64,000 bases of DNA from Segetibacter koreensis DSM 18137. Lineage in GTDB: Bacteria; Bacteroidota; Bacteroidia; Chitinophagales; Chitinophagaceae. The translations under genes were made by a program, and so were the position numbers. Shown here in pieces: positions 4,769 to 61,246 of the stretch. How positions within the stretch are numbered: position 1 is the first letter of the stretch; each line of letters opens with the position of its first letter. The notes beneath the pieces were generated by a model. It was not told the DNA's origin. It ran no database searches and saw only the letters and a list, made by a program, of their open reading frames with translations. The stretch spans positions 124,001-188,000 of the forward strand of contig NZ_KB893386.1 in the NCBI RefSeq assembly GCF_000374045.1, in the 5' to 3' direction.

Positions 4769-4840
4769 GTAGCGAAGATTTTTTTAGTAAACAACCAACT
4801 TGGTGTTATGCAAGATTAGACTGAAAATAATAGGTAATAC

Positions 4841-4854
4841 ATGATTTAAATCAT
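4841..4854. promoter_or_regulatory. FNR-type operator of the nos operon
   Basis: ATGATTTAAATCAT is a perfect palindrome, TGAT-N4-ATCA. Leftwards, TAATCTTG (4811-4818, one mismatch to TAnnTTTG) starts 22 bp from its edge: the near spacing, for cytochrome c-nosZ-nosL-nosD. Rightwards, AAACTTTG (4899-4906, one mismatch) starts 44 bp away: the far spacing, toward the membrane-protein gene at 5180, though that would leave a leader of about 270 bases. The 411-bp gap holds this site, a repeat copy at 5063 and a weak hairpin (4985-4991 with 5018-5024). Confidence 0.75.
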
Positions 4855-5062
4855 ACTTTAAAGAGGTTTTAGTCATTTATTCCAACGAGTGTATCAAAAA
4901 ACTTTGCAATAAATTCAGAAGTTACTGGAAGGAAATTATAAAAACAGGTTACAGAGAAATTTACAGTTAATGTATTAAAATGTTGAGAGTTTTAATTGTA
5001 ATCAGAAAAGAAGTGACAACTCTCTTATAAACTTTTTGAGGCAACAAAATAACTTTCTTCAA

Positions 5063-5086
5063 CATCGTTGCGTCACTCACTTGTAC
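5063..5086 (-). repeat. Interspersed GTACAAGTG...GACGCAA repeat, copy 1
   Basis: On the minus strand this reads GTACAAGTGAGTGACGCAAC followed by GATG. Related intergenic copies lie at 20841 (minus), 58845 (plus) and 62535 (plus), with a degraded one near 2081. All are outside genes. The role is unknown. Confidence 0.6.
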
Positions 5087-5179
5087 TGTTAGTTTCCGCA
5101 TTCAGCTTTTTTAAACTTTTGCTATTATGAATGTCCTTACAAGAAAAAAAGCTGCGAAGGCTTCAAATTTTAAAATATT

Positions 5180-6481
5180 ATGAATGCAAAACTTTCAGCT
5201 CGTTCATTAAAAAACTGGTACGTAATTGCGTTATTCAACCTTGCTATTTTAGCCCTGTTAGGCTTAATACTCAGGTATAAAATAAACTTTGCTTTACCCT
5301 TTATTGAACAGGAGAATTTACTGCACGCTCACTCCCACTTTGCCTTTAATGGGTGGATAGGCTTTTTATTACAGCTACTTATTCTTGATGAATTTACCGG
5401 TGATTATAAAAAATCAGCAAAGTTTTGGAACGGCTTTTTTATGGTATCTACCATTGTTAATTATGCAATGATAGTCAGCTTTGCATGGGTAGGCTATGCC
5501 GGTATATCTATTATTTTGTCTACTATCGCTTTATGGCTTTCTTATGTTTTTGCTTATAAAATCTATAAAGCTCTTCACCCTTTTAAAAATAGGCAAATAA
5601 GTACTCTTTTTGTAAAAGCTTCTTTATTTTTCCTGTTGGTATCTTCTCTTGGGCCTTATGCACTGGGGATAATAATGGCAACAAAAATAACACATCCTTA
5701 CTGGTCTCATAACGCATTGTTTTTCTTTCTTCACTTTCAGTACAACGGCTGGTTCACCTTTGCTGTGCTGGCTTTCCTGTTTAAAAAACTGGAAACGAGT
5801 GCCTTGTTTAATGTAAAGGATGCACGTATTTTTTATATCCTCCTCGCCGGAACGTGTATCCCTTCATACTTATTTACTTCGTTGTGGCAGCACAGACCCT
5901 TTAGCATTACAATAATCATTGTAATTACCGCCATTCTTCAAACAGCTGCTTTATATTTTTTGTGGAAGTTGCTTTATAAAAACATGAAAAATGTTTATTC
6001 AAACCTGCCTGCTATTTGCCGATGGTTATACTCGTTGGCAATCAGTGCATTTATTTTAAAAGTTTTACTGCAGTTCTTCTCTGTTCATCCGGCAGTGACA
6101 CAACTATCCTTTGGTTTCCGTCCAATTATTATAGGTTACCTGCATTTGATTTTTCTGGCGTTTATCAGCATGTTTTTACTGGGGCTGATGACCGATAAGA
6201 AAATTCTTTCCCTTAATTATAACGTGACTCCAATGGGGCTAATAACTTTTGCAGCAGGAATTATTTTAAATGAACTATTATTGGCGATACAAGGCTTTGC
6301 GGCAATCCACAATTTGTTTTTACCAAAACTGAACATCCTTCTTTTTGCAAATACTTTTATTTTAGTTGCAGGGGCAATACTATTATTTATTGCTGCGAGA
6401 AAGCCAACTGTACATTCATTTAATGCTGGTTATAAACTTTCAAATACAGAACAAGGCAAATTTAGAGCAGGCAAGTTATAA
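5180..6481 (+). CDS. Polytopic membrane protein with a haem-copper-oxidase-like histidine pattern
   Basis: A 433-residue integral membrane protein with about 12 hydrophobic helices and a basic C-terminus. Conserved-looking polar features lie in the helices: LLHAHSHFAFNGW (His49, His51, His53), HNALFFFLHFQYNGWF near residue 175, and RPIIIGYLHLIFLAF near residue 315. Paired His/Trp positions in helices recall haem-copper oxidase or NO reductase subunit I, or NnrS-like proteins, but I cannot assign it to any of them. It is divergent from the nos operon and shares the gap that holds the FNR-type site. A role in nitrogen-oxide or haem/copper metabolism is inference from position only. The ATG at 5180 overlaps the TGA of an 18-codon frame starting at 5127. 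Confidence 0.6.
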   Translation: MNAKLSARSLKNWYVIALFNLAILALLGLILRYKINFALPFIEQENLLHAHSHFAFNGWIGFLLQLLILDEFTGDYKKSAKFWNGFFMVSTIVNYAMIVSFAWVGYAGISIILSTIALWLSYVFAYKIYKALHPFKNRQISTLFVKASLFFLLVSSLGPYALGIIMATKITHPYWSHNALFFFLHFQYNGWFTFAVLAFLFKKLETSALFNVKDARIFYILLAGTCIPSYLFTSLWQHRPFSITIIIVITAILQTAALYFLWKLLYKNMKNVYSNLPAICRWLYSLAISAFILKVLLQFFSVHPAVTQLSFGFRPIIIGYLHLIFLAFISMFLLGLMTDKKILSLNYNVTPMGLITFAAGIILNELLLAIQGFAAIHNLFLPKLNILLFANTFILVAGAILLFIAARKPTVHSFNAGYKLSNTEQGKFRAGKL

Positions 6482-6637
6482 GGAATAGAAATTTAATATT
6501 CTATAGCAATTTACAATACATCTTATACATGAATTGCAACAGAATATTTAAACCAAAAAAACTTACTTTTTGTAAATTATATAAAACTGATAATTAACGT
6601 CCAACGCACAAGTAGCCCAGAAGCAATAAAATAACTA

Positions 6638-7693
6638 TTAATAAGGTAAATTTCTCAATTTCTTTTCATCTAAAATAATCACCTTACCCGTTTGAATATC
6701 TATAAGCTTTTCATCTTTAAAATCTCCCAGGGTTCTTATAAGCGACTCCGTTGCAATTCCGATTGATTGCGCCATATTCTCTCTTGACAAATTCAAAATA
6801 GGTTTTTCGTCTTCTTTTAATTTGTATTTATCATACAACTGAATAAGCCCGTAAGCTACTTTTCTACGCAAAGAATTATAAGCAAGATTGACAAGACTTT
6901 CTTCTTTTTCAATAATATTTTGGGTTATTATCTTAATGAAACTTTGTGCTATTTGCATATCGTTTGATAGCAGTTGCATAAAATCGTCCCGGGGTATCAG
7001 CATTAGTTGGGTTTCTTCTAATACCTGGGCTTCTTCTTTATAATTTACATCTTCTAAAATGGCAGTATAACCAAAAAAATCCCCGGGACCGAAAATGTTG
7101 GTGATAAGTTCTTTACCATCCTGGTTAGTCTTCGATATTTTTACTTTACCACTTATTACATGATATACGACTCTTGGCCGTTGGCCTTCTTTGTATAAAA
7201 CATGTTTTTTATTATAAGTATAAATGTCTCTTTCATCTGATGTTAATTGAACTTTACCGGTTTGTTGAGCATTTGCGATAAATTCATTGATCGCTTCGTG
7301 ACCTGTATATTGCTGTTTTAGCAAATCGGTTTTTTTCAATCTAACTTCAATAGCATTTAACAGCTCAATACCATCAAATGGTTTTGTTATATAATCATCT
7401 GCACCCATTTCCATTCCTTTTCTAAAGTCTGATTTTTCTGATTTTGCCGTTAAAAAAATAAATGGAATCGAAGCAGTTTCTTTATGCTTGCTTAACAGGT
7501 GGCATACCCCATAACCGTCAAGTACAGGCATCATAATATCGCAAACAATAAGATCAGGTCGCTCTTTTATAGCAAGCTCTACACCGACTTTGCCGTTTTC
7601 TGCGGTAATTACTTTATAATTTGAAAGTTCAATTATTTCGGCTGTATTTTCTCTGACTTCTAAATTATCTTCTATTATCAATATTTTTTTCAT
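6638..7693 (-). CDS. Response regulator with CRP/FNR output (REC-cNMP-HTH)
   Basis: The 351-residue protein joins an N-terminal receiver domain (about 1-120; acidic pocket Glu8/Asp9, phospho-acceptor Asp52, Thr82, Lys104) to a full CRP-type sensor barrel (about 155-270) and a winged helix at the C-terminus. The recognition helix ATESLIRTL has Glu316 and Arg320 at the positions that contact TGA in FNR and CRP, with Ile319 where FNR has Ser212. Only Cys51 and Cys64 are present, both in the receiver, so there is no FNR iron-sulfur cluster; control should come by phosphorylation. The gene overlaps the kinase gene by 29 bp, so they are translated together. It is the best candidate in this window to bind the TGAT-N4-ATCA sites. 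Confidence 0.92.
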   Translation of the reverse strand: MKKILIIEDNLEVRENTAEIIELSNYKVITAENGKVGVELAIKERPDLIVCDIMMPVLDGYGVCHLLSKHKETASIPFIFLTAKSEKSDFRKGMEMGADDYITKPFDGIELLNAIEVRLKKTDLLKQQYTGHEAINEFIANAQQTGKVQLTSDERDIYTYNKKHVLYKEGQRPRVVYHVISGKVKISKTNQDGKELITNIFGPGDFFGYTAILEDVNYKEEAQVLEETQLMLIPRDDFMQLLSNDMQIAQSFIKIITQNIIEKEESLVNLAYNSLRRKVAYGLIQLYDKYKLKEDEKPILNLSRENMAQSIGIATESLIRTLGDFKDEKLIDIQTGKVIILDEKKLRNLPY

Positions 7694-8984
7694 AAATTTC
7701 TTTAAGATGATTGTTCTGTGGAATGTGAATTGTCACCGTAGTACCTTCATTAAGTTTACTTCTCAGTTCTATTCTTCCGTTCATTAATTCCAGGTATTTA
7801 CTTACAATGTGCAAACCCAAACCTGTTCCCTGTATATTACTTGCATTTTTGGCACGGAAGAAGCGCTCGAACAAATGTTGCTGGTCCTCTTGCGATATGC
7901 CAATGCCATTATCTATAACAGCAATAACCAAATTGTCATTTGTAAGATAGGCAGAAACGGTAATCGTCGAATTTTCGTTTGTAAATTTTATCGAATTTGA
8001 AATTAAATTTATTAAAACGTTTTTAAGTAAATTTCTATCAACCCAAACCGGTGTATTTATAGTATTATTAAAATGTATTTTTTGACCTGGTCTTAATAAT
8101 GCATCCATTTCCTGAAGTAAGGCATGTATGTCTTCCAGGAATGCACTGGTGCTGATCGTTTCCATTTTTGTCTGCACCAATCCCTCTTCCAGTTTACCAA
8201 GAGATAGAAAATCTTCAAGTATTCCCTTCATTACACCTACCGCTCCTTTTATGCGATGAATGTGTTTTTCAAACTTCTCGTTTGGGTTAGCCTGGTTGTA
8301 TTTTTCCATCAGGTAGGCTGACGAAAGAATAGTGCTTAAAGGAGTTCTGAATTCATGTGAAGCCATTGTAACAAACCTCGATTTCAACTCGCTCAGCTCT
8401 TTTTCATTTTCAAAAGCTTCGCTCAGTTCCTCTTTAGACTTCTCCAATTCGGCTAATGCTTCGCGCAGCATTTTTGTACGATCACTGACCTTCTGTTCCA
8501 ACTCACTATTCATACTTTTAATTTCACCAGTCACAATTTCAAGTTCCTGCTTTTGTTCTAAAACAACTTCTTCCTGCTTTTTTCTTACAGTTATATCAAC
8601 TACAAACGCAATTACAAAATTGTGACCATTAATAGTATAATTGCTGAGGCTTACCTCAACCGGAAAAGTGCTTCCATCTTTTTTCTGGCCAAAAAGATCT
8701 CTTCCATGGCCCATAGCCCTTACTTCCGGGCTGGAGTTGTAATCCTGGCGGTATTGTACATGTTTTTCGCGAGCCGAAGGCGGGATGAGCACTTCAACGG
8801 TCTTTTCAAGCACTTCATCCTTAGAAAATCCAAACTGTTTTTCTGCAAATTTGTTGAAATTTATAATTCTCCCTTCGCTGTTTGTTACTATAATACCTAT
8901 AGTAGCGTAATTGAATAGAGCTTCAAACTGCTCGATATTACTTACCTGTTTTTGCTCCCTACCTGCTATATTTACAGACATCAT
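7665..8984 (-). CDS. PAS-domain sensor histidine kinase, possible haem/oxygen sensor
   Basis: A 439-residue soluble kinase with no membrane helix. It has a PAS domain (about 15-132), a coiled coil rich in Glu/Lys (about 134-200), HisKA with phospho-acceptor His210 (SHEFRTPLS), then HATPase_c with the N box (NLISNSIKF), DNGIGI and GTGLGL. Aligned by eye with FixL, His75 (EKHVQY) falls on the haem-ligand His200 and Arg95 (GHGRDLFG) on the oxygen-sensing Arg220, and the following GQKKDGSTFP also matches. Many PAS domains keep these residues without haem, so oxygen sensing is a hypothesis. The start is ATGATG; no FNR-type box is visible upstream. Confidence 0.93.
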   Translation of the reverse strand: MMSVNIAGREQKQVSNIEQFEALFNYATIGIIVTNSEGRIINFNKFAEKQFGFSKDEVLEKTVEVLIPPSAREKHVQYRQDYNSSPEVRAMGHGRDLFGQKKDGSTFPVEVSLSNYTINGHNFVIAFVVDITVRKKQEEVVLEQKQELEIVTGEIKSMNSELEQKVSDRTKMLREALAELEKSKEELSEAFENEKELSELKSRFVTMASHEFRTPLSTILSSAYLMEKYNQANPNEKFEKHIHRIKGAVGVMKGILEDFLSLGKLEEGLVQTKMETISTSAFLEDIHALLQEMDALLRPGQKIHFNNTINTPVWVDRNLLKNVLINLISNSIKFTNENSTITVSAYLTNDNLVIAVIDNGIGISQEDQQHLFERFFRAKNASNIQGTGLGLHIVSKYLELMNGRIELRSKLNEGTTVTIHIPQNNHLKEIYEKNIDNRR

Positions 8985-9259: not shown

Positions 9260-10141
9260 TCAGGCAGCCGATATAACTTCCGAACCGTCAATTTCTTTCC
9301 CGGGTTCTTCCTTAATCGTATCCTTTTTTTCAGGAAGTATTAGCAAAGGTACCGGTGTACGAAAAATCATGTTTTTTGTTACACTTTTTGTAAATAGCCG
9401 TTCAAACAATGTGTGTTCGTGGGGAATAACAGCTACCAAATCTACGGCATATTGTTTTACAAACGCAATCATAGCTTTAGCCACATTTCTTGCTTTTGGA
9501 AAAACATAAGAAGGATACAAGCTTGTTAGAAACCAAATTAATTTTTTTGACTTTATAACCCTTGATGCCACCTCATCCATAGAATTTTTAATCACTCTTA
9601 CAACAAAAAGCCTGGATTCAAATTTCTCTACGATCTTCTTCAAAGGCTCTAAAATCTGTATATCCGTATCATCGGTAATGTCGCTGGCAAGAGCAATTGT
9701 TTTTGGAATAGAAAATACAGCATCTGCCGGAACAACAATTAAGGGAACCTGGGAGTGTTTACACAAATCAGTAACAGCACTTCCAAAATATTTTCTTATT
9801 TCCTTTCCCCGTTCTTTCATTCCTACAATGATGTAAGAGGCTTTGTATTCCAGAGCGGCGGAAAGAATAGAACTACTGACAGGCCCCTGCCTGCTTTGGG
9901 TCTCTAATGCAATTGTTCTGCGCGGATCAATCGTTTCAGCCTCATCCAGCAATTGCTTGTAACTGTTTCTCTCCAGTTCTTTAGAAGTCAGATAAAGCGA
10001 ACTTTCAGGTAAAGCTGCTGGCATTGTGAAGGCGGTAAACAAAATAACTTTTGCCCTAATTAATCGTGCAAGTTCAAATCCGTAAATTGTCGCATTTCGC
10101 GCTGCAGAAGAAAAGTCCGTAGCAATAAGAATAGTTTTCAT
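9260..10141 (-). CDS. Tandem universal stress protein, type A
   Basis: A 293-residue protein with two UspA folds. The first begins MKTILIATDFSSAARN and ends in a nucleotide loop near residues 107-121 that departs from G2XG9XGS at one glycine (GMKERGKEIRKYFGS). The second ends HEHTLFERLFTKSVTKNMIF...PLLILPEK. It is a full-length paralogue of the protein at 61247, same length, which has the exact loop. UspA proteins bind ATP or other ligands and support survival in stasis, hypoxia and stress. Its FNR-type box at 10208 has a perfect -7 element at the far spacing. Confidence 0.9.
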   Translation of the reverse strand: MKTILIATDFSSAARNATIYGFELARLIRAKVILFTAFTMPAALPESSLYLTSKELERNSYKQLLDEAETIDPRRTIALETQSRQGPVSSSILSAALEYKASYIIVGMKERGKEIRKYFGSAVTDLCKHSQVPLIVVPADAVFSIPKTIALASDITDDTDIQILEPLKKIVEKFESRLFVVRVIKNSMDEVASRVIKSKKLIWFLTSLYPSYVFPKARNVAKAMIAFVKQYAVDLVAVIPHEHTLFERLFTKSVTKNMIFRTPVPLLILPEKKDTIKEEPGKEIDGSEVISAA

Positions 10142-10207
10142 TAAGACCTTTTTCTCAAAGCTAACTTTCAGGTATTTTGTTTAGTATGTCTTATAACAGG
10201 CTAACTA

Positions 10208-10221
10208 ATGATTTTAATCAC
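10208..10221 (-). promoter_or_regulatory. FNR-type operator of the type A uspA
   Basis: ATGATTTTAATCAC contains an exact TGAT-N4-ATCA. On the minus strand a perfect TAGCTTTG (10156-10163) starts 44 bp from its edge, 15 bp before the ATG at 10141. This far-spacing layout is identical to the two promoters around 61162. Confidence 0.75.
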
Positions 10222-11097: not shown

Positions 11098-11098
11098 A

Positions 11099-13431: not shown

Positions 13432-13498
13432 TGTATAATTAGATTTCTAAATTACCATCAGGAAAATAATAGCAGCTTGTTTACAGCTACATGCACTA

Positions 13499-13512
13499 AT
13501 GATTTTGATCAT
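13499..13512 (-). promoter_or_regulatory. FNR-type operator of the MacAB-like operon
   Basis: ATGATTTTGATCAT holds an exact TGAT-N4-ATCA with outer A/T pair. On the minus strand TAATTTAG (13447-13454), one mismatch to TAnnTTTG, starts 44 bp from the box edge, the far spacing. The only gene that can be served is the exporter operon, starting at 13431. Confidence 0.65.
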
Positions 13513-13666: not shown

Positions 13667-16231
13667 TCACTTTTCTAACTTTCGCCTGATCCACTTTTCT
13701 ATTTCTACTGCGTGAAATACTATAGCGGAAGCAACAACACAGATAAATAATTCGACCAGGCTTAAGGGTTGTGTTTTAAAAAGCTGGTTAGCATAAGGCA
13801 AATAAATAACTGTTAACTGAAGTATGAATGTTAGCAATACGGCACCTAACAGTGGCAAATTTGAAAACAATCCTTGTCGAAGCAGAAACTCCTTCTCACT
13901 TCTTATTGCGAGCACATGGCCCAGTTGAGAAAGTGATAAAACAGTGAACACCATTGTTTGCCAATGAACATCATTGTTATGTAAAGCCCAGGCCTGAACT
14001 CCTAATGTTACACCGGCCATTAATAAACCCACCCACACAATATGTAAACCTATGCCTCCTGCAAAAAGGCTTTCATTGGCAGCACGTGGCGGCCTGTTCA
14101 TTACATCTTTTTCTGCTTTTTCACTCGATAAGGCTAAACCCGGAAGTCCATCAGTAACCAGGTTTATCCAAAGAATATGTATGGGCAATAACGGGATAGG
14201 CAAACCAATAATTGGTGCAAGGAAAATCGTCCATATTTCTGCACCGTTGCAGGTCATAATATATTTCACAAATTTCCTGATGTTATCATAAATACGCCTG
14301 CCTTCTTTTACTGCCTTTACGATAGTGGCAAAATTGTCGTCGAGCAAAATCATGTGGGCTGCTTCTTTACTCACGTCGGTACCATTGATACCCATTGCGA
14401 CACCTATGTTGGCTGACTTTAATGAAGGAGCATCATTTACACCATCGCCAGTCATTGACACGAAATGATTTTTATGCTGTAGTGCTTTTACAATATTTAA
14501 TTTCTGCTCTGGTGATACACGGGCATATACTCTTATTCTTTCGACTTTCTCTTCAAATTCTTCATTTGATAATGCCTGTAATTCGCTTCCTGTAATTACC
14601 AAATCATGTTCGGAGAGTATTCCGATTTGTCTCGCCACTGCTGATGCCGTTGCGGGGTGGTCACCCGTTATCATCACTACATGAATACCTGCAGCTTTAC
14701 ACTCTTCAATTGCCAGTCTTACCTCTTCCCTTGGTGGGTCGATCATACCAACGATTCCGGCAAATGTCAGGTCTTTTTCAATACTGTTATAGGAGAATGA
14801 TTCGGGCAACCGGTCTGATATTTTATAAGCATAAGCCAATACCCTCATCCCGTTTGCAGCAATAACATGAGCTTTATCTAAAATTGAATTAACATTGCCT
14901 GTATCTGACAGAGTTGTAACAATAGACTCGACGGCCCCTTTTGACACAATAAGAAATTTATTATTAAAACGATGAATAGTGGACATGCATTTACGGTCGG
15001 AGTCGAAGGGTAATTCTGCCACCCGCGGAAATTGTTGTTCCAACTCATTTAATTCATGAAAGGAGTGCTGTAAGCCGAAATAATCGACAACCGCCGTTTC
15101 TGTAGGGTCACCCAATAAGGTGTTTATTTCTGTTTTCTTTACGTCGTGGTTAAGAGCAATTGCACAGTCGAGCGGTGAAATATTTTTATAAAACACGGGA
15201 GCTCCGGAAGCTTCCGCTTGCACTACTTTCATTTTATTTTCGGTAAGGGTACCGGTTTTATCAGAACAAATAAAAGTAACTGAACCTAACGTTTCAACAG
15301 CAGGCAATTTTCGTATAAGCGCATTTTTCTTTACCAGCCGTCTCGCTCCTTTTGCAAGAGCAATAGTTATAAGAGCAGGCAAAGCCTCAGGTATCGCCGC
15401 GACTGCTAATGAAATAGAAAGTAACAGCATTTTTATCGGCTCCTCGCCCCGCAACAATCCTACTGCAAAAAGTAAAATACATATAAAAAGGATGAGGTAA
15501 GAAAGTCTTTTCCCAAAATCTCCCATTCTTTTTTGCAAAGGAGTAACGGCCTCATCTTGCTGTAACATGCGGGCAATAAGACCTATTTCCGTATTCATGC
15601 CTGGCGCCACTACAATGCCTCTTGCCCTGCCATTAGTTACCAGCGTACTTTTGTAAGCCATATTTAACCTGTCACCAATAGGAAGGTCTTTTCCTTCTAA
15701 TATTTGTTCCGCTTTATCTGCAGGAACCGATTCTCCTGTAAGTGCAGACTCATCAATTCGGAGACTATGCGTTTCTATCAACCGCAGATCTGCCGGCACG
15801 GCGTTGCCAGCCTCTAAAAGAACAATGTCGCCGGGAACAAGCTGTGCTGATGGAATGGTAGCAGGATGACCATTGCGTAAGACATGTGCCTGGATGGCTG
15901 CCATTTTCTTTAGAGCTTCCATTGCTTTTTCCGCCCTGTATTCCTGTACAAAGCCGACTACTGCATTTAGCAATACAATCACCAGAATAATTATTGTATC
16001 GGTTACATCGCCGGCAATACCTGAAATGATAGCAGCTGCGATTAATACCAATATCATGAAGTCTTTAAACTGGTTAATAAATAGCAGCCATGCAGGTTTT
16101 TTCTTTTTTTCCTCTAATTCATTTGCACCAAATTCTAAAAGCCTTTCTTCAGCAGTTTCAGTAGATAAACCCGAAACAGAAGAATTTGTAAGCTCAAAAA
16201 CTTTATTGATATCGAGCAGATGGAAGTTCAT
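13667..16231 (-). CDS. P2A-type Ca2+-transporting ATPase
   Basis: An 854-residue P-type ATPase that should pump Ca2+ out of the cell. It has the actuator motif TGES, the phosphorylation site CSDKTGTLT, and the hinge motif MTGDGVNDAP. Calcium-site residues known from SERCA are kept: PEALP in helix M4 (Glu309 equivalent), NGAE in M5 (Asn768, Glu771) and NLVTDG in M6 (Asn796, Thr799, Asp800). About ten helices, with the last four at the C-terminus. It stands alone and carries an FNR-type box 54 bp upstream with near-spaced -7 TATCTTTA. The mycobacterial hypoxia regulon also contains a P-type ATPase (CtpF). Confidence 0.92.
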   Translation of the reverse strand: MNFHLLDINKVFELTNSSVSGLSTETAEERLLEFGANELEEKKKKPAWLLFINQFKDFMILVLIAAAIISGIAGDVTDTIIILVIVLLNAVVGFVQEYRAEKAMEALKKMAAIQAHVLRNGHPATIPSAQLVPGDIVLLEAGNAVPADLRLIETHSLRIDESALTGESVPADKAEQILEGKDLPIGDRLNMAYKSTLVTNGRARGIVVAPGMNTEIGLIARMLQQDEAVTPLQKRMGDFGKRLSYLILFICILLFAVGLLRGEEPIKMLLLSISLAVAAIPEALPALITIALAKGARRLVKKNALIRKLPAVETLGSVTFICSDKTGTLTENKMKVVQAEASGAPVFYKNISPLDCAIALNHDVKKTEINTLLGDPTETAVVDYFGLQHSFHELNELEQQFPRVAELPFDSDRKCMSTIHRFNNKFLIVSKGAVESIVTTLSDTGNVNSILDKAHVIAANGMRVLAYAYKISDRLPESFSYNSIEKDLTFAGIVGMIDPPREEVRLAIEECKAAGIHVVMITGDHPATASAVARQIGILSEHDLVITGSELQALSNEEFEEKVERIRVYARVSPEQKLNIVKALQHKNHFVSMTGDGVNDAPSLKSANIGVAMGINGTDVSKEAAHMILLDDNFATIVKAVKEGRRIYDNIRKFVKYIMTCNGAEIWTIFLAPIIGLPIPLLPIHILWINLVTDGLPGLALSSEKAEKDVMNRPPRAANESLFAGGIGLHIVWVGLLMAGVTLGVQAWALHNNDVHWQTMVFTVLSLSQLGHVLAIRSEKEFLLRQGLFSNLPLLGAVLLTFILQLTVIYLPYANQLFKTQPLSLVELFICVVASAIVFHAVEIEKWIRRKLEK

Positions 16232-16284
16232 AAAATTTTAAAAAGGTCTTTTTTTAAAGATATATTTTTAAGCCCTTTAAAAGA

Positions 16285-16298
16285 ATGACAGGAGTCAC
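16285..16298 (-). promoter_or_regulatory. FNR-type operator (TGAC variant) of the Ca2+-ATPase
   Basis: ATGACAGGAGTCAC contains TGAC-N4-GTCA. On the minus strand TATCTTTA (16255-16262), one mismatch to TAnnTTTG, starts exactly 22 bp from the box edge, the near spacing. No matching element is found toward the MFS gene on the other side. Confidence 0.65.
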
Positions 16299-16512
16299 TA
16301 AAGCTTATGAGAAATAATATTGAAAAATAATGAACCAATACTTTCTTAAACAATTATCACTTTCAAAAGTTTTTCAGCCTTTTTGACAAAAAAACAAATT
16401 ATTGGCTGTGTGAATCGAATAACAGTTACCGGACGAATGAATCGAATAAATAAATTGAATTATCTTGTTACCGTTTTTTCCGGTGTTCTCACTTTAATAA
16501 CTAATACAATTT

Positions 16513-20975: not shown

Positions 20976-21347
20976 TCATGCCTTTTTTGCCATATCCTTT
21001 TGTCCCATTTCATTCAGGTGAGCCAGGCTAAGATCGTCAGCAGATACAGACTCGACCCAATCGCCATTTTCCAGGAAAAATATCTGTACAAACAACCCAA
21101 AAAAATGCCTGAAATCTTGCTCAACTTTTCCTGTTTTATACCACGATTTTATTTCTAATGCGCCACTATTATGGTTCTTTCTTATTTCTCCTATTTTTTT
21201 GTCTGCAATTATTCGATGCTCTCTAAAAGACGATTCCTGCCATTTATGCCTTACATCATAAAACTCTATTTTTAAGAACGGGAAGCACTCATTAAATTTA
21301 TCCTGCAACTCTGAGGTAGTTTTATTATCGTCGATGCTTAAAATCAT
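20976..21347 (-). CDS. Conserved-looking hypothetical protein in the DoxX-uspA operon
   Basis: I do not recognise the family. The product is 123 residues from the ATG at 21347 (MILSIDDNKTTSELQDKFNECFPFLKIEFYD); an in-frame upstream start at 21404 would run through the preceding small gene and is rejected. It is soluble and mixed alpha/beta, with a motif HRIIADKKIGEIRKNHNSGALEIKSWYKTGKVEQDF and an acidic C-terminal part. It begins 7 bp after a 50-residue membrane ORF, downstream of uspA, so it probably belongs to the box-controlled unit starting at 22957. Confidence 0.65.
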   Translation of the reverse strand: MILSIDDNKTTSELQDKFNECFPFLKIEFYDVRHKWQESSFREHRIIADKKIGEIRKNHNSGALEIKSWYKTGKVEQDFRHFFGLFVQIFFLENGDWVESVSADDLSLAHLNEMGQKDMAKKA

Positions 21348-21354
21348 ATTCTTC

Positions 21355-21507
21355 TTAATTGTGCTGTATAAAAACTCCGTAGATTTTTGTAAAAATAAAA
21401 ACAATAAAATCTTTGAGGAATGTAAAAGCTGCTACATAAAATAAAACCGCAACAACCCAGGCTATTAATCGATGAGAAAATATTTTATGAAAGTTCCCGG
21501 TAATCAT
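21355..21507 (-). CDS. Small single-span membrane protein (50 aa)
   Basis: An ORF of 50 codons starts with ATG at 21505-21507 and ends with TAA at 21355-21357. The product has a basic N-terminus (FHKIFSHR) and one long hydrophobic span (LIAWVVAVLFYVAAFTFL), then a second hydrophobic patch and QHN at the end. It sits 67 bp after uspA and 7 bp before the next gene, with AAGAAG as a possible ribosome site for that gene. Good packing and a clean membrane span make it a likely real gene. Confidence 0.55.
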   Translation of the reverse strand: MITGNFHKIFSHRLIAWVVAVLFYVAAFTFLKDFIVFIFTKIYGVFIQHN

Positions 21508-21574: not shown

Positions 21575-22414
21575 TTAATGGTTATGGGCAATAAACAGCG
21601 GAAGATTCACTTTTTCTATTAAACAATCTGCCAGGCTTCTTTTAAACAACCGCGATACCATATTTCTTTGATAAGCACCCAATACCACGAGGGCGTTCTC
21701 TTTTTGTAATTTCAGGTAAGTAGTAATTTCCTGTTCAGCGTCTCCTTTTAATACAGTAAATGTTGCGTGCGGAAAATGGCGGTGCATAAACTCCTTCATA
21801 TACTTATTGTCAGGTAAATGATACGATTCTTTTTCATCGTTTATTGACAGAACTTCAGTTTCTATATATTTAAGGGCAGGAAGCAAATAGCTAAACATTT
21901 TTATTGCATAAACCGAGGCAGGCTTACCATTGTACAGTAAAATAATTTTACTTATAGGCTTAAAAGTATGCGGGACTACCATTACAGGGCATTGTGTTTC
22001 AGCTAACAGCTCGCGCATAAACTGAGACGGCGCCTGCTCTTCAAACCGGGTAAAAGTCTCATTTTTGTAAATAACAAGTAAGTCACTATAAATTGTTTCG
22101 TGCAATAAATCAGGAAAAGCTGCATCCTTATCGCGGTGAATAGAATAATTTAGTTTAGCATTTTGTACTTCACTTTCAAATAAATGCACTGCATTCTCCC
22201 TCTTTTCCTCGTCCTCTTTATCAAGTTGTTTCAAATTGCCCTGGCTACCATTGCCGTCAAAACGAACCTGAGAAAGACGATAACTATGGTACAAAATATC
22301 GTCTAAAAAAACCCCTACAAGATGAGCATTACTATGTTTTGCAAGATAAATGGTATAATCCCTGGTACTCTCAGAAAACTTATAACCATCAAAGGCGCCT
22401 ATAATCTTCTTCAT
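21575..22414 (-). CDS. Tandem universal stress protein, type C
   Basis: A 279-residue double UspA protein. The first domain begins MKKIIGAFDGYKFSESTRDYTIYLAKHSNAHLVGVFLDD; the second ends in GAYQRNMVSRLFKRSLADCLIEKVNLPLFIAHNH, a degenerate nucleotide loop. It is a paralogue of the protein at 59404 (SESTxDYxxYxAK, GAYQR). It lies 12 bp after the DoxX-like gene, so one message carries both. The paralogous pair at 58923-60240 has the same two partners in the opposite order. Confidence 0.88.
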   Translation of the reverse strand: MKKIIGAFDGYKFSESTRDYTIYLAKHSNAHLVGVFLDDILYHSYRLSQVRFDGNGSQGNLKQLDKEDEEKRENAVHLFESEVQNAKLNYSIHRDKDAAFPDLLHETIYSDLLVIYKNETFTRFEEQAPSQFMRELLAETQCPVMVVPHTFKPISKIILLYNGKPASVYAIKMFSYLLPALKYIETEVLSINDEKESYHLPDNKYMKEFMHRHFPHATFTVLKGDAEQEITTYLKLQKENALVVLGAYQRNMVSRLFKRSLADCLIEKVNLPLFIAHNH

Positions 22415-22426: not shown

Positions 22427-22957
22427 TTAACTTTGATACAAAGAATGGGACGTAAATTTTCTTATGTTGAAACGCTTATTACTCTTCGTTTGCTTCTTCC
22501 AGACGTAATCAGGTTTTTCCTTTAATAACCAAACCATTGCATAAGCCATAATAAGTGTGCTTGGAAATGCTGAGGCAATGCCTAATGGCATAATAGCAAC
22601 CAGAAAAACAATGGCGCCAATAACTCCTGCTTTATAAAACCACCCTTTTAGTAGCAGCGAGACAGCAATAAAACTTTGTGCAGTTGCAATAGAGCCAACA
22701 ACCAATACTACATGTTTGCTAAACCAACCTGTAATAAACAGTCTGTATATACCTAAAGCGGCTTCAGAAGTGCGAACATAATCCTCGGGTGATTGAAGGG
22801 AAAGTTTCCAATTAATATAACTGGCTGAGGCAAACAATATAAAAAACAATACACGGGCCACCTTCGGAAAGAAAACTGAAAAAAATAGCAATATCAATGC
22901 AAAAGCATTTGAGATTAAATAACCTACTAAAAAAGTTTGATCTTCAAGGCCTTTCAT
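22427..22957 (-). CDS. DoxX-like four-helix membrane protein
   Basis: A 176-residue protein with about four to five helices. It shares with the protein at 58923 the segments SxxxxARVLFxxLF, a W-N/T-W stretch, ALGIYRLFITGWFSKHVVLVVGSIA and IxGAIVFLVAIMPLGIASAFPS. The fold resembles DoxX/DoxD-type proteins, but the exact family is uncertain. A basic tail follows. It is the first gene of a box-controlled unit with uspA, and in both places where it occurs it accompanies type C uspA. Confidence 0.7.
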   Translation of the reverse strand: MKGLEDQTFLVGYLISNAFALILLFFSVFFPKVARVLFFILFASASYINWKLSLQSPEDYVRTSEAALGIYRLFITGWFSKHVVLVVGSIATAQSFIAVSLLLKGWFYKAGVIGAIVFLVAIMPLGIASAFPSTLIMAYAMVWLLKEKPDYVWKKQTKSNKRFNIRKFTSHSLYQS

Positions 22958-23023
22958 AATAAGGCGATTTAATTGTTATCTGAGATAGGAGAACAAATTT
23001 GGATATTTCATATCTACTTTACA

Positions 23024-23037
23024 ATGACGATGGTCAA
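23024..23037 (-). promoter_or_regulatory. FNR-type operator (TGAC variant) of the DoxX-uspA unit
   Basis: ATGACGATGGTCAA contains TGAC-N4-GTCA. On the minus strand CAAATTTG (22994-23001), one mismatch to TAnnTTTG, starts exactly 22 bp from the box edge, the near spacing, 37 bp before the ATG at 22957. Confidence 0.6.
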
Positions 23038-23124
23038 GGTCTTGTATGATTGCTATCTTAATTAACCATTATCCAACTACTGGCTACACGTAATTGAAAA
23101 AACGTTTTTACAAAAACTGAAAGA

Positions 23125-28113: not shown

Positions 28114-28201
28114 AAGTCTTTAAAATTTAAAATGATTTAATTACCTTTTCCTATATCTTTTATAAAACGTGAAAAATTAAAGCTCTACCATTTATTGCTT
28201 T

Positions 28202-39531: not shown

Positions 39532-39622
39532 ACTGAAAGTATTAGCTAATATAGCCTCTAAAGCAACGGCGTGCAGGAGAAAAATTTGTAGGCTAAACTA
39601 GGTTTAGGCGATTGAATCCCCG

Positions 39623-39636
39623 ATGATGTACATCAT
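39623..39636 (-). promoter_or_regulatory. FNR-type operator of the PEEIP ATPase
   Basis: ATGATGTACATCAT is a perfect 14-bp palindrome. On the minus strand TAGTTTAG (39593-39600), one mismatch, starts exactly 22 bp from the edge. Toward the right-hand genes (39797 onward) no -7 element fits either spacing. Confidence 0.7.
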
Positions 39637-39796
39637 CTTCTTGTGTGCTGTTAGTCATTTTTTTACTGCCTGTTTATTACAACCTTAGATAAAAATATTA
39701 CGAATAATCAAGAATTATGAATAAGCTTTTCCAAATACAAAAATATTCGTTTCACGGCAGTCATAAAGGAATCAAGTCTCCTCTAAAATTATTGTT

Positions 39797-55355: not shown

Positions 55356-57791
55356 TTAAGCATGCAAACCGACAGGTTGCAATAAAGGCTCTTCTTTTCG
55401 CTTTCTATTTATTTTATCTTCTGCCTTCAGCATATTGTCAATACCGGTAAGCAGGGCATCGGGATTAAATGAAATACTGTTAATGCCTTCTTCAATTAAA
55501 AATTCAGCAAAATCAGGCATGTCACTAGGCGCTTGTCCACAAAGGCCTATTTTAATTTTATTATTTCTTGCTGATTTTATTGCCTTAGAAATAAGTTGCT
55601 TGACTGCAGGATCTTTCTCTGAAAATATATCTCTTACCAAATTGGAGTCTCGATCGAGCCCGAGTGTAAGCTGAGTTAGATCATTTGAACCAATTGAGAA
55701 ACCGTCGAAAACTTTTGCAAACTGGTCGGCTAATAAAACGTTACTTGGTATTTCGACCATCATATATATTTCAAGATCATTTGCTCTTTGCTTAAGCCCA
55801 AAACCTTCCATTACGGCAATTACCTTTTTACCTTCATCTACTGTTCGGCAAAATGGTATCATCAGTTTTACGTTTGTAAATCCCATTTCTTCCCTAACCT
55901 TTTTCATGGCAGCACATTCCAATTCAAACCCATCTTTGTACATGGGGTTGTAATACCGGGAAGCGCCCCTGAAACCTAGCATCGGGTTTTCCTCAGCAGG
56001 TTCAAATTGCTTTCCCCCTATTAGGTTGCTATATTCATTTGTTTTAAAATCAGACATTCTGACAATCACATCTTTCGGATAAAAAGCCGCAGCGATAGTA
56101 GCAACTCCCTGTGCAAGTTTTTCAATAAAATATTCCTTTTTGTTGCTATAACCAAAAGTTAGTTCACTAATCTCTCCTTTTACTTTTTCATCATTAATTT
56201 GTTCAAACCGCGTTAAAGCCAATGGATGAATTTTAATATCGTGCATTATCAGAAATTCCATTCGTAACAAACCAACACCTTTATTAGGTAAAAATGATAA
56301 ATGAAATGCCTGCGAAGGGTCTCCTAATATAAACATAGGGCTGGCATCAGGCATAGTTTCATAAGAAATACTTTCTTTTGAAACTGTCCATTCTGCTTTA
56401 CCATCATAAATAAAACCTGTAACGCCTTCGGCACAACTTACTGTTATCTCCTGGCCGTCTTTTATTACCTCAGTTGCATTGCCACAACCTACTACTGCAA
56501 CAGTGCCAAGTTCACGTGCAACTATAGCTGCATGACTCGTTCTGCCTCCTTTGTTGGTAATAATTGCGCCTGCCTTTTTCATTATAGGATCCCAGTCGGG
56601 AGTAGTTATGTCAGTTACCAATACTTCACCCTGCTGTAATAAATCGGCATCTTTTGGAGATTTTATAATTCTTGCTTTTCCTGCACTTATTTTTTCGCCT
56701 AATGCTATTCCTTCGGTTAACTTTCGTCCCTTCTTTAAAATGACATAATTATTTATAAAAACCTGGTTTTTATTTTTTGCCTGTACTGTTTCCGGTCTTG
56801 CCTGCACAATAAACAGCTCGCCGGTAATTCCATCTTTTGCCCATTCAATATCCATTGGCTTGTCATAGTGTTTTTCTATTGTGACGCACCATGAAGCAAG
56901 TTTTTTTACATCGTTCTCATTTACCGAAAACGATTTTCTTTTATCGTCGGCAGTAGCAATGTTTACAACGGGTTTATTGTAATTTGAACTATCTGAGGGA
57001 TAAATCATGGTCCATTCTTTTCCACCAATTTTTTTGTTGATAATGGGATTGAAAGCAGTATCAATATGTGGCTTAAAAAGGATAAACTCATCGGGAGTTG
57101 ATTGTCCCTGTACAATATTTTCGCCCAATCCGTAAATACTGTTTATCACTACCACATTGTCAAAGCCGGTATCAGGATCAAGAGTAAATGCTACGCCAGA
57201 TGAAGAAAGATCTGACCTCACCATTTTTTGAACACCTACAGATATTGCAATATCCACATTTCCAAAGCCATTCTCGTGCCTGTAATAAATCGCTCTGTCG
57301 GTAAATAATGAAGTAAAGCACTTATGAACCGCATTTACCAGCGCATCTTCTCCCCTGATATTTAAAAAGCTTTCAAGTTGGCCCGCAAAGCTGGCCGAAG
57401 GCAGATCCTCGGCTGTCGCACTGCTTCGTACCGCAACGGAAATATTTTCATCCTCACCGCAAAGCTGGTAATGGGCATTTTTTATTGCTACAACCAGTTT
57501 ATGTGGCAGAGGATTTTCAAGTATCAATTGCCTCGCAGCCTTTCCTGTTTCGGCTAAATTTGAAAAATTCCTGGTGTCAAGTTTTTCGAAAATCTTTGAT
57601 AGAGGGCTTTGAATATTATTCTCATTAAGAAAAATTCTGTACGCTTCAGCAGTAATAGCAAAACCATCAGGAATATGAACGCCTTTACTACTCAGGTTGC
57701 TATACATTTCACCCAAAGAAGCATTTTTACCGCCAACCAAGGCAATATCATTTATTGAAATCTCAGAAAACGTTTTTATTACAGGTATCAT
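55356..57791 (-). CDS. ppsA: Phosphoenolpyruvate synthase
   Basis: An 811-residue enzyme that makes PEP from pyruvate and ATP. It has an N-terminal ATP-grasp domain (VGGKNASLGEMYSNL; AVRSSATAEDLPSASFAGQ), the swivelling phospho-His domain (NKGGRTSHAAIVARELG), and a C-terminal barrel ending KIGLCGQAPSDMPDFAEFLIEEGINSISFNPDALL with the catalytic cysteine. Length and order fit PpsA, not PPDK. It begins 76 bp after a type B uspA and should be read from that gene's FNR-type promoter. Confidence 0.93.
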   Translation of the reverse strand: MIPVIKTFSEISINDIALVGGKNASLGEMYSNLSSKGVHIPDGFAITAEAYRIFLNENNIQSPLSKIFEKLDTRNFSNLAETGKAARQLILENPLPHKLVVAIKNAHYQLCGEDENISVAVRSSATAEDLPSASFAGQLESFLNIRGEDALVNAVHKCFTSLFTDRAIYYRHENGFGNVDIAISVGVQKMVRSDLSSSGVAFTLDPDTGFDNVVVINSIYGLGENIVQGQSTPDEFILFKPHIDTAFNPIINKKIGGKEWTMIYPSDSSNYNKPVVNIATADDKRKSFSVNENDVKKLASWCVTIEKHYDKPMDIEWAKDGITGELFIVQARPETVQAKNKNQVFINNYVILKKGRKLTEGIALGEKISAGKARIIKSPKDADLLQQGEVLVTDITTPDWDPIMKKAGAIITNKGGRTSHAAIVARELGTVAVVGCGNATEVIKDGQEITVSCAEGVTGFIYDGKAEWTVSKESISYETMPDASPMFILGDPSQAFHLSFLPNKGVGLLRMEFLIMHDIKIHPLALTRFEQINDEKVKGEISELTFGYSNKKEYFIEKLAQGVATIAAAFYPKDVIVRMSDFKTNEYSNLIGGKQFEPAEENPMLGFRGASRYYNPMYKDGFELECAAMKKVREEMGFTNVKLMIPFCRTVDEGKKVIAVMEGFGLKQRANDLEIYMMVEIPSNVLLADQFAKVFDGFSIGSNDLTQLTLGLDRDSNLVRDIFSEKDPAVKQLISKAIKSARNNKIKIGLCGQAPSDMPDFAEFLIEEGINSISFNPDALLTGIDNMLKAEDKINRKRKEEPLLQPVGLHA

Positions 57792-57867: not shown

Positions 57868-58686
57868 TTATAGATGACTAATGAAAATGGGAATAGTATG
57901 GCTATTAATGATATCGTCTGCAAAACTTTTTTTGAAGGCCATAGATAAACCAGGCCGGTCATAAGCGCCTGTAATAACCATGGCATTTTTATGTGTATTT
58001 ATCCAAAAAGAAAAAGTCTTCTTTGAAAAGTTTAAATGTTCAAAATTCAATAGTTTAAAATGCCTTGCCGCAAATTCTTCAATGTACTCCAGGTCAGGTA
58101 TTTCCTTATCGGCTTCATCATTAAAGTATACAATTGTTGTTTCTAATTCGCAGTACTGTGGAAAAAGATAAATAAACTGCTTAAGGGCATAAACACTGTC
58201 TTTTTTTCCATCGTATGCAAATACAATTTCATTAATTGGTTCCACCTTATCAGGAACTACAATTATCGGACACTCTGCTGCATGAAGCGTTTGCTGAAGA
58301 ACAGATTTTGCTTCACTGTCGCTCAAATTAGAGAAAAATGCTGCGCCACCTATTACCATAAAATCGGCAAACCGCGATTCTTTTACGAGATCAGAAATAT
58401 CCCACGTATCACTTTCCTCATGAATTCTGTATTCGATCTGATTTTTTTCACAGTATTCTTTAAATTCTTTTATTCCTTGTAGAAATGCATCGTTTTCTTC
58501 CTCTGTATAAGACAAATAAGGACCTGCATCAGGAGCAAAGGTGTTGGGAATGACAAGACCATAATTAAGAGAATGAAAAAAAGCTCCGGTCAATAAAAAA
58601 GGTTCATTTTCAGAAAGAGAACTTACAAATTGAAAAGCCGCCTTTGAAAAATTTTTACCATCACAGACAAATAGGATCTTTTTCAT
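57868..58686 (-). CDS. Tandem universal stress protein, type B
   Basis: A 272-residue double UspA protein (MKKILFVCDGKNFSKAAFQFVSSLSENEPFLLTGAFFHS) closely related to those at 23125 and 60254. The second domain ends GAYDRPGLSMAFKKSFADDIINSHTIPIFISHL, without the classic ATP loop. It is the first gene of a likely operon with ppsA, under an FNR-type box at 58770. Confidence 0.88.
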   Translation of the reverse strand: MKKILFVCDGKNFSKAAFQFVSSLSENEPFLLTGAFFHSLNYGLVIPNTFAPDAGPYLSYTEEENDAFLQGIKEFKEYCEKNQIEYRIHEESDTWDISDLVKESRFADFMVIGGAAFFSNLSDSEAKSVLQQTLHAAECPIIVVPDKVEPINEIVFAYDGKKDSVYALKQFIYLFPQYCELETTIVYFNDEADKEIPDLEYIEEFAARHFKLLNFEHLNFSKKTFSFWINTHKNAMVITGAYDRPGLSMAFKKSFADDIINSHTIPIFISHL

Positions 58687-58769
58687 AACCTGTATTTTAT
58701 TGTTTAAATGTTTGCTTCAAAACTATCGTTTCATGCAATTTTTTATTATGACACGGAAAAAGATGTTTT

Positions 58770-58783
58770 ATGACATTCGTCAG
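58770..58783 (-). promoter_or_regulatory. FNR-type operator (TGAC variant) of uspA-ppsA
   Basis: ATGACATTCGTCAG contains TGAC-N4-GTCA. On the minus strand a perfect TAGTTTTG (58718-58725) starts exactly 44 bp from the edge, the far spacing. Confidence 0.72.
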
Positions 58784-59396: not shown

Positions 59397-59403
59397 AATA
59401 AAT

Positions 59404-60240
59404 TTATTTATGTGCTATGAACAAAGGAATTTCAACTTCTGCTATCAGCAAATCAGCGATACTCTGGTAGAGCCATCTTGAGAAAGAACTGCGCTGGTAA
59501 GCGCCGAGTATAAGCATGCAGTTTTTATTTTCTGCCTGCAGATGTTTTACTAATGCTTCATCGGTATGGTCGCTTTTAATAATTGACTGAAGAACTGTAG
59601 CATACTTTCTCTTCAGTAATTCTTTTAGCAAATGTTGATTTGGAAAATGGTTTGAATGCTTATCATCTGTAATCATTAGTATTTCTACCTCCTTCAACGG
59701 TGTAGCCGGAAAAAGATAACTGAATTGCCTGATAGCGTAAACAGATGAAGGGCTGCCATCATAAGCAAAAACAAACTTTTCAATGGGTTTAAACTCTGCA
59801 GGAACAACAATCACAGGACAATCAGCATCTGATAATAGATTTTTCATAAACAAACTGGGTTTTGAAGAATCCCAGTTAGAAAATTTTTCATTTTCATCTA
59901 TCAATATCATATCAGAATAATGACTCTCACGCAGTAAAGATTTAAGTGCGAATGTTTTATCACGATGAATATTATAATTTACTCCTTCAGCCTCAAACCT
60001 TGTTTGAACATTTTTTTTAGACACAGCCCGTAACTGTTCTTCTTTCTTCACAAGCGTATCCATTTGCGACCAATCAGTAAATACGTAATCCTCATCCGCC
60101 TCTGGTCTTGCATGATATACCATCTCTTCCAGGAAAGCTGCAACAATATGTGCATTAAATTCTTTAGCGAAGTAAACAGAATAATCAACTGTACTTTCTG
60201 ACAATTTTAGAGCATCTAAGGCGGCTATTACTTTGATCAT
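59404..60240 (-). CDS. Tandem universal stress protein, type C
   Basis: A 278-residue double UspA protein, paralogue of the one at 21575. I choose the ATG at 60240 (MIKVIAALDALKLSESTVDYSVYFAKEFNAH), because it aligns with the paralogue's start and leaves a 13-bp gap; the longer frame to 60270 would overlap the upstream gene. It ends GAYQRSSFSRWLYQSIADLLIAEVEIPLFIAHK. It pairs with the DoxX-like gene, as at 21575-22957. Confidence 0.88.
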   Translation of the reverse strand: MIKVIAALDALKLSESTVDYSVYFAKEFNAHIVAAFLEEMVYHARPEADEDYVFTDWSQMDTLVKKEEQLRAVSKKNVQTRFEAEGVNYNIHRDKTFALKSLLRESHYSDMILIDENEKFSNWDSSKPSLFMKNLLSDADCPVIVVPAEFKPIEKFVFAYDGSPSSVYAIRQFSYLFPATPLKEVEILMITDDKHSNHFPNQHLLKELLKRKYATVLQSIIKSDHTDEALVKHLQAENKNCMLILGAYQRSSFSRWLYQSIADLLIAEVEIPLFIAHK

Positions 60241-60253
60241 ACAATAAACGGTT

Positions 60254-61078
60254 TTAGCGATTATGTGCAATAAATAGTATTGCAGACGGGTGTTTTATCA
60301 TATCCTCAACAAAATTTTTCTTTAAGATCGACGACAGACCAGACCTTTTGTAGGAGCCTGAGATAAAGATGGTGTTTTTGTTTTTGCGTGACCAGTCCGC
60401 TATATATTGTTTCGGGTCAAAAAAGAGCTCTTTAAAATTAAGGTTTGAGAAATGCCGACCGGCAAATTCTTCCAGGTAGTCTAGGTCTGGTATTTCATCA
60501 TCTGTTTTGTCAACCCAATATACTATATCAGTTGGCAATTGGGTATATTGAGGAAACAGGTAACAAAACTGTTTTATAGCAAACATAATTTCCTTTTTTC
60601 CATCATAAGCAATAGTAATATGCGTAACGGGGCTATAATCTTCAGGTATTACCAGCAATGGACATTCGGAACAATGCAAAACATCCTTCATAAAACTATT
60701 TGGCTGATCAACATCTATATGACTAAAAAAAAGTTGTTCACTCATTACAACAGCATCTGCAAATCGTGTCTCCTTTATAAAGTCATCGAGTTTAAATACG
60801 TCACTCTCCTCATGTACACGATACTCGATTCCATTTTGCTTGCATTTTTGTTCAAATTTTTCAATGCTGCTATTGACAGCTTTAATGTCTGTATCTGTAA
60901 AAGCAAGTATAGGTTCAGGGGCAAATTCAACAGTTGCAGGGGCTACCACATCAAAATTGGCGGAGTGAAAAAAAGCGCCTGTCAATAAAAGAGCCTCAGT
61001 TTCATTTAAGTTTTCTACAAATTTAAAAGCACCTGATGGAAAATTATTAACGTCGCACACAAATACTATTTTTTTCAT
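60254..61078 (-). CDS. Tandem universal stress protein, type B
   Basis: A 274-residue double UspA protein (MKKIVFVCDVNNFPSGAFKFVENLNETEALLLTGAFFHS), related to those at 23125 and 57868. The second domain ends GSYKRSGLSSILKKNFVEDMIKHPSAILFIAHNR. It leads a three-gene unit (type B, type C, DoxX-like). The perfect far-spaced -7 TAGCTTTG at 61110-61117 belongs to the box at 61162. Confidence 0.88.
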   Translation of the reverse strand: MKKIVFVCDVNNFPSGAFKFVENLNETEALLLTGAFFHSANFDVVAPATVEFAPEPILAFTDTDIKAVNSSIEKFEQKCKQNGIEYRVHEESDVFKLDDFIKETRFADAVVMSEQLFFSHIDVDQPNSFMKDVLHCSECPLLVIPEDYSPVTHITIAYDGKKEIMFAIKQFCYLFPQYTQLPTDIVYWVDKTDDEIPDLDYLEEFAGRHFSNLNFKELFFDPKQYIADWSRKNKNTIFISGSYKRSGLSSILKKNFVEDMIKHPSAILFIAHNR

Positions 61079-61161
61079 ATCAAGAAAAATTGAGAAGTTA
61101 AATTGTAATCAAAGCTAAAAAGTCTCTTTTAGTGTATTTATGATGCGTGGTATGAGTTCTT

Positions 61162-61175
61162 ATGATTTAAATCAG
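61162..61175. promoter_or_regulatory. Bidirectional FNR-type operator between two uspA genes
   Basis: ATGATTTAAATCAG has the same TGATTTAAATCA core as the nos site. A perfect TAGCTTTG lies 44 bp away on each side: 61110-61117 (minus, toward 61078) and 61220-61227 (plus, toward 61247). The mirror symmetry is exact. Confidence 0.82.
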
Positions 61176-61246
61176 CTTTCGGACTAACGGGAGTTAGTTA
61201 AAAAAATGTCGGGTAATAATAGCTTTGAAATTAAAATCATTCTGTA

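Follow-up and report, generated by a model that had tools for sequence, protein, structure and literature searches.

Which protein reads the phased palindromes lying between the genes of a 64,000-nucleotide stretch of the Segetibacter koreensis DSM 18137 genome (contig NZ_KB893386.1, positions 124,001 to 188,000; this whole stretch is the window, and its genome is G000), and what do they control? In an initial annotation the palindromes and the -7 elements downstream of them had been described as a phased CRP/FNR-type regulon with two promoter classes. The regulon is well supported, here and in relatives, whereas the class split fails and the regulator is probably not FNR itself. The reading preferred here, to which a probability of about 0.72 is attached and which rests on sequence comparison, is that the sites are operators of a low-oxygen survival regulon run by a FixL-like histidine kinase and a phosphorylated fusion of a receiver domain to a CRP part, acting on tandem boxes.

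All 14 palindromes originally listed are present, with coordinates given one base to the left of the T in TGA, and 12 of them are perfect copies of TGAT-N4-ATCA or TGAC-N4-GTCA; the remaining two are found at 28203 (TGAGCAAAATCA), with one mismatch, and at 32107 (TGATTTTCGTCA), a mix of both types. Across 300 dinucleotide shuffles of the 10,322 intergenic bases defined by the analysis's own gene set for the window, perfect palindromes averaged 0.27 and never numbered more than 3, where the real sequence has 12; three further perfect copies lie inside coding sequence. By a strict two-type score, 18 intergenic palindromes have one mismatch (shuffle mean 7.06), so that the naming of two of them had been selective. 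In the window TGAY-N4-RTCA reaches a density of 2.5 per 10 kilobases (kb). In 400 kb of control sequence from the same genome, made up of 20 stretches of 20 kb whose round-number coordinates on eight further contigs were chosen blind to matches, the density is 0.475.

The two -7 distances reported for these sites were also recovered. Counted from the last A of TCA they are 23 and 45 bases, which equal the 22 and 44 previously counted from the edge of a 14-base-pair (bp) box. Of the 22 orientations in which a neighbouring gene points away from a site, 6 have TAnnTTTG, with at least 5 of its 6 letters, at 23 and 8 have it at 45. Such elements occur off phase once at offset 24 (site 36505) and once at 44 (site 33892), with every other offset used at most twice; the two best offsets sum to 14, where 2000 dinucleotide shuffles gave a maximum of 8. 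Six of the -7 matches are perfect, as had been stated, and site 34027, described as having two mismatches, has no phased element of at least 5/6 letters and by eye one of 4/6 at offset 23. Genome-wide, the near pattern matched 54 times and the far pattern 47 times at up to one mismatch, versus 24 and 16 times for the patterns reversed. A chance origin of the sites is ruled out by the shuffles, the reversed sequence, the control stretches and the relatives described below.

A second, often weaker box, missed in the initial annotation, is located 22 bp from the first, and is visible in many of the genome-wide far-pattern matches. In the window, a TGAY-N4-RTCA box has another of at least 6/8 at this spacing 11 times, as opposed to 0.58 per average spacing, and the peak is absent in the 20 control stretches; the usual pair combines one perfect box with one matching 5 to 7 of 8 letters. 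Most boxes at the far position (D) are accompanied by a near-position (P) box of at least 6/8: this holds for 6/7 in the window, 139/154 at 80 relatives' loci (background 1.3%) and 15/17 in a second sample of fusion loci, against 0 to 2% expected by chance. Because far boxes are nearly always paired with a near box, the geometry is that of a tandem site for two dimers, and near and far are one operator with two boxes. The proposal that near and far distances represent class II and class I promoters, respectively, could draw on the fact that one box of each window pair is usually the stronger and on the hsp20 gene, where the near box at 30212 stands alone, but given the pairing of far boxes it is now highly improbable.

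For scanning, a composite operator was taken as one box of at least 7/8, the other of at least 6/8 and a -7 element of at least 5/6. By this definition there are 12 in the window, 26 in 389,484 bases of 20 other G000 stretches (mostly around pattern matches, and a few next to the window or to CRP genes) and none in the 400 kb of controls, while the same sequences reversed contain 0, 1 and 0, respectively; one of the window's 12, at 17767, lies outside the original list and may be a chance match. A profile was built from 179 operators at 72 of the relatives' loci, each with one 8/8 box and a second of at least 5/8. It reads TGAY-N4-RTCA, 10 bp, TGAY-N4-RTCA, 23 bp, TAnnTTTG, and a -33 TTG is not conserved in it. 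D and P share one core consensus in these operators, a middle A being preferred in the D box alone. The FNR/FixK consensus box is TTGAT-N4-ATCAA, and its outer T/A preference is absent from the 179 operators, in which T precedes TGA in 12% (D) and 27% (P), and A follows TCA in 15% (D) and 7% (P).

The best candidate for the regulator is the 351-residue fusion protein encoded in the window itself. Matches to PF00027 and PF13545 are both over the cut-off and place it in the CRP/FNR superfamily, and none of the best 25 of 110 matching NCBIfam models exceeds its own cut-off. The phospho-acceptor aspartate and catalytic residues of response regulators are present, with D9, D52 and K104 found in all 81 sequences compared (the fusion and 80 relatives) and T82 in 79, replaced by S in 2. 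In the same 81 sequences the recognition helix follows the pattern T-E-S/T-x-I-R (T in 77, E in 81, S or T in 81, I in 80 and R in 81), which among five CRP-type proteins of G000 whose helix was read occurs in the fusion only. The N-terminus of the fusion is the receiver domain and carries no FNR-type iron-sulphur (Fe-S) cysteines, and its output is Crp-type, with no NarL-type helix-turn-helix as in DosR. In the CRP of Mycobacterium tuberculosis, residues of the PRTSSA stretch contact cyclic AMP (cAMP); in an alignment this stretch is not kept in the fusion, which has other residues there.

Does the operator accompany the fusion in other bacteria? Species genomes were scanned with the fusion, yielding at least 576 relatives, among them those of Chitinophaga filiformis (L182) and Segetibacter aerophilus (L157); the best 80 loci were kept with boxes disregarded in the choice. 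When a second box of at least 7/8 was required and pairs in which both are perfect scored double, the 22-bp box spacing was counted 197 times at these loci and the next spacing 8 times. The -7 elements lie at offsets 45 and 23 in 154 and 102 cases versus 6.6 elsewhere, and 74 of the 80 loci, though chosen by the fusion alone, have phased boxes. Of 296 genomes from the phylum, 43 have a full-length fusion (E at most 1e-60), and 28 of these carry perfect tandem boxes, versus 10 of the 253 that lack it; the reversed tandem pattern has no match in this table. When 20-kb stretches from one genome sample were compared, twenty of each kind, 24 composite operators were found in 13/20 fusion stretches versus 8 in 4/20 stretches around standalone FNR-like genes (p=0.006). 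The second box thus goes mainly, not solely, with the fusion. Because the arrangement recurs in related bacteria, the low-oxygen survival programme is probably real.

The standalone loci bear on two other explanations. The 23-base -7 phase occurs 22 times at them, and 7 of their 8 far boxes have a near partner, which argues that a wider clade, with the helix GTATES/T-x-IR, has the half-site and its class II register in common. The T-E-S/T-x-I-R helix is also found beside composite operators in standalone proteins, one of which has S for T. The boxes could accordingly be read by the standalone FNR-like protein P0003 (G000 C24:181127-181813), with the fusion a mere neighbour or minor partner, and in favour of this CRP-family proteins have similar core sites and P0003 has four N-terminal cysteines, C-x4-C-x2-C-x2-C, that possibly hold an Fe-S cluster. 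However, close relatives of P0003 (E<1e-70) were found in only 6 of the 74 genomes searched, all 6 of which also have the fusion, and are lacking in 24 of the 28 genomes having both the fusion and perfect tandem sites; its helix, YETVFR, is unlike the T-E-S/T-x-I-R type; and near boxes have a far partner in 5/22 cases at standalone loci versus 78/102 at the 80 fusion loci, although in 12/32 in the second fusion sample. The rarity of close relatives and the differing helix disfavour P0003 as the main regulator, and this explanation is unlikely. Somewhat less likely again is that an FNR-like protein and the fusion share the operators, competing or co-occupying, with one sensing oxygen via Fe-S and the other via the kinase. 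While the half-sites and -7 phase are the same at both kinds of loci, and a two-box layout could accommodate two different dimers, the core consensus of D and P is identical, giving little sign of two specificities apart from the middle A, and most fusion genomes have no close P0003 relative.

If the fusion is the regulator, its signal would come from the PAS histidine kinase whose gene lies upstream of it and overlaps it by 29 bases. The PAS domain of this kinase aligns with that of FixL without gaps (E 1.7e-18), with DosP also matched, while against the NCBIfam FixL model the kinase scores 109.3 bits, below the cut-off of 850. His75, which aligns with the FixL heme-ligand histidine, is present in 65/65 kinases, the window's included (64 of 66 adjacent kinases were aligned with it, two whose match starts after residue 40 being left out). 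Arg95 of the window kinase aligns with an arginine of FixL, taken here to be the distal one. A similar kinase adjoins the fusion upstream in 66 of the 80 relatives' loci, and in 17 relatives' loci the operator precedes the kinase gene itself. As part of the preferred reading, the PAS domain is predicted to be of heme type and oxygen-sensing.

Several observations weigh against a circuit of this kinase and fusion. Arginine is found at position 95 in only 33/65 kinases, so that the heme or ligand chemistry may differ; 14/80 fusion loci have no adjacent kinase by the criterion used, 3 of them at a stretch edge and most of the others not; and the scan gave no operator directly before the window's own kinase gene. 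The hsp20 promoter has a single box, its D position scoring only 2/8. The 80 loci, the best of at least 576, are mutually related, and the association of perfect tandem boxes with the fusion, also that within the class (28/43 versus 4/30 without, p=1e-5), is uncorrected for kinship. The four fusion-less class genomes with a perfect tandem site are G017, G150, G111 and G273, and six more are found in the rest of the phylum sample. Conversely, 15/43 fusion genomes have no perfect tandem site, 7/20 loci of the second fusion sample have no composite operator by a laxer scan, and in that sample the far-partner fraction given above is low. In G150, G271 and G273, composite operators occur in the 20-kb stretch around a standalone FNR-like gene with a similar helix and there is no full-length fusion; at L223 (G273 C23), perfect tandem boxes lie in both directions near such a gene. 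The notion that the fusion is the sole user of the operator is weakened by these composite operators beside standalone proteins.

In the proposed mechanism, two proteins would do the work that FixL, FixJ and FixK share in rhizobia: the FixL-like kinase with its putative heme PAS would phosphorylate the response regulator with CRP/FNR-type output. The phosphorylated fusion would then bind as two adjacent dimers to the boxes 22 bp apart. With -12 assigned to the first T of TAnnTTTG, the proximal dimer would be centred at about -41.5, replacing the -33 element, and the distal dimer at about -63.5, two helical turns upstream. The weak box would be filled cooperatively with the strong box, as expected because one box of a pair is usually strong and the other weak, and RNA polymerase would be recruited via the proximal dimer, as at class II promoters. 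It is about an even bet that this amounts to a phosphorylation-switched CRP, in which the receiver replaces the small-molecule or Fe-S switch and two dimers lock onto the 22-bp tandem boxes, so as to run a Bacteroidota dormancy programme under oxygen limitation, one that is the functional counterpart of mycobacterial DosR but arose independently with another DNA-binding fold.

Judged by their families, the putative targets are microoxic and dormancy-type genes. In the window, those for respiration and transport are a Sec-dependent nosZ (presumably of clade II) with cytochrome c, cation P-type ATPases and an HlyD-FtsX-ABC exporter; the others are usp genes, glk-glgX, hsp20, baeRF, an AAA_33 gene, a PPDK-type ppsA and the gene for a PNPOx-like protein. 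Elsewhere in the genome, where the target was taken as the longest open reading frame beginning within 350 bp of an operator, they comprise ccoNO of cbb3 oxidase (COX1 plus FixO), a metal ATPase with an ATPase-cat_bd domain, two S30AE-type ribosome hibernation proteins (one scoring slightly below the cut-off), two hsp20 genes, usp, nitroreductase, phosphoribosyltransferase, BON, PLD, an AMP-binding enzyme, a cytochrome c, a receiver-only protein and several genes with no family match. The commonest first genes behind operators in relatives, grouped by BLAST clusters with Pfam run on one member each for COX1, ATPase, ScdA and Rrf2, are COX1-type (26 loci), P-type ATPases (18), a family like the window gene at 20976 (17) and the kinase (17), followed by usp (14 in 13 loci), nos-type cytochrome c (8), ScdA-type (6), Rrf2 (6), other usp (5) and hsp20 (4). 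The layout of the nos/cytochrome c operator is kept in the closest relative locus, L124, and only some of the six nearest relative loci checked retain window orthologues nearby.

The circuit resembles the FixL-FixJ-FixK system of rhizobia in its FixL-like PAS (by sequence), its cbb3 oxidase (ccoNO) and nos targets, and its CRP-type palindrome, but differs in that the receiver and CRP part are fused in one protein and the operator is tandem at a fixed 22 bp, without the outer T/A of the FixK box. With class II and class III activation by FNR/CRP, it shares the class II register and tandem CRP-family sites, but it differs in its predicted receiver control, in not keeping the cAMP-contact residues of M. 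tuberculosis CRP and in its rigid 22-bp tandem spacing. Standalone FNR-like regulators of Bacteroidota with the GTATES-x-IR type helix have a similar helix and the same half-sites and -7 phase, but no receiver and often a single proximal box (17/22 near boxes without a 6/8 far partner). The DosR/DevR system of M. tuberculosis, the kinases of which are GAF heme kinases, is likewise a kinase with a response regulator acting on adjacent strong and weak sites, but the present circuit combines a CRP-type output with a PAS sensor. For DosR, which has a NarL-type output domain, a weak site next to a strong one is described as being filled cooperatively (PMC3029386), and targets of DosR type are described as including usp, Hsp20, cation ATPase, nitroreductase, phosphoribosyltransferase and a hypoxia ribosome factor (PMC4090907, PMC5309233), the same families as in the G000 regulon. 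This parallel is one of logic and gene families, with no claim of common descent. MalR-like CRP/FNR proteins have been proposed for Flavobacteriales and Saprospiraceae (PMC8510549), a paper whose main text does not contain the terms receiver and tandem. Judged by titles and abstract openings of open-licence literature, neither the fusion nor the tandem operator was found described in Bacteroidota; the parts are known, and within that literature their combination and the rigid tandem operator look new.

If the proposed circuit is true, the oxygen-stress response of a large environmental phylum would gain a defined circuit whose operator can be read from sequence, and a member of the CRP family would be under phosphorylation control. 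The 65-base operator is specific enough (0 matches in 400 kb of control DNA) for regulon prediction from sequence, and the predictable regulon includes the Sec-dependent nosZ, which removes nitrous oxide. The repeated origin of dormancy regulons with similar gene sets would also become testable.

Table 1. Operators and regulatory genes of the window. D, far box; P, near box; box scores are out of 8 and -7 scores out of 6.
Feature	Position	Strand	Gene or target	D	P	-7 element or remark
Candidate regulator	6638-7693	-	receiver (REC) + cNMP-binding + HTH_Crp_2 fusion			351 amino acids; domains by Pfam
Candidate sensor	7665-8984	-	PAS histidine kinase			FixL-like PAS
Operator	4811-4875	-	nos/cytochrome c gene ending at 4768	6/8 (4864-4875)	8/8 (4842-4853)	5/6 (4811-4818)
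Weak operator	4842-4906	+	towards 5180	8/8	6/8	5/6
Operator	10156-10220	-	usp 9260-10141	8/8 (10209-10220)	6/8 (10187-10198)	
Operator	13447-13511	-	HlyD/FtsX/ABC exporter	8/8	5/8	
Operator	16255-16319	-	cation (Ca2+-type) ATPase 13667-16231	5/8	8/8	
Operator	22994-23058	-	gene 22427-22957, and usp 21575-22414 if an operon	7/8	8/8	
Operator	28172-28236	-	glk-glgX	6/8	7/8	
Operator	28203-28267	+	PNPOx-like 28287-28760	7/8	6/8	
Operator	30190-30254	+	hsp20 30299-30742	2/8	8/8 (30212-30223)	
Operator	32054-32118	-	baeRF 30846-31889	8/8 (mixed score)	6/8	
Operator	33840-33903	-	AAA_33 gene 33342-33854 and gene 32323-33345	8/8	7/8	one base closer
Palindrome	34027-34038		directly before GTG-start DUF4136 gene			perfect palindrome
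Operator	36483-36548	+	gene 36565-36966	7/8	8/8	one base further
Operator	39593-39657	-	P-type ATPase 37036-39531	7/8	8/8	
Operator	58718-58782	-	usp 57868-58686, and PPDK/ppsA 55356-57791 if an operon	8/8	6/8	
Operator	61110-61174	-	usp-like gene 60254-61078	8/8	6/8	D box common with 61163-61227
Operator	61163-61227	+	usp 61247-62128	8/8	6/8	D box common with 61110-61174

Some target genes are without clear family. Gene 36565-36966 has only a sub-threshold Pfam match, and gene 22427-22957, called DoxX in the initial annotation, has no match in Pfam or NCBIfam. The family of the window gene 20976-21404 (about 135-142 amino acids; another member is L102:12578-12988) has no Pfam match in three members scanned and no NCBIfam match for the window's member; most, not all, members of the 17-locus first-gene group resemble it. 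The receiver-only protein, of 145 amino acids (L087:1388-1825, G000 C46), lies behind a composite operator and is possibly a phosphate sink or a feedback element for the kinase. At G000 C3:114458-114832, on a contig that also carries operators, there is a receiver stretch 62% identical to the receiver of the fusion, with one stop inside.

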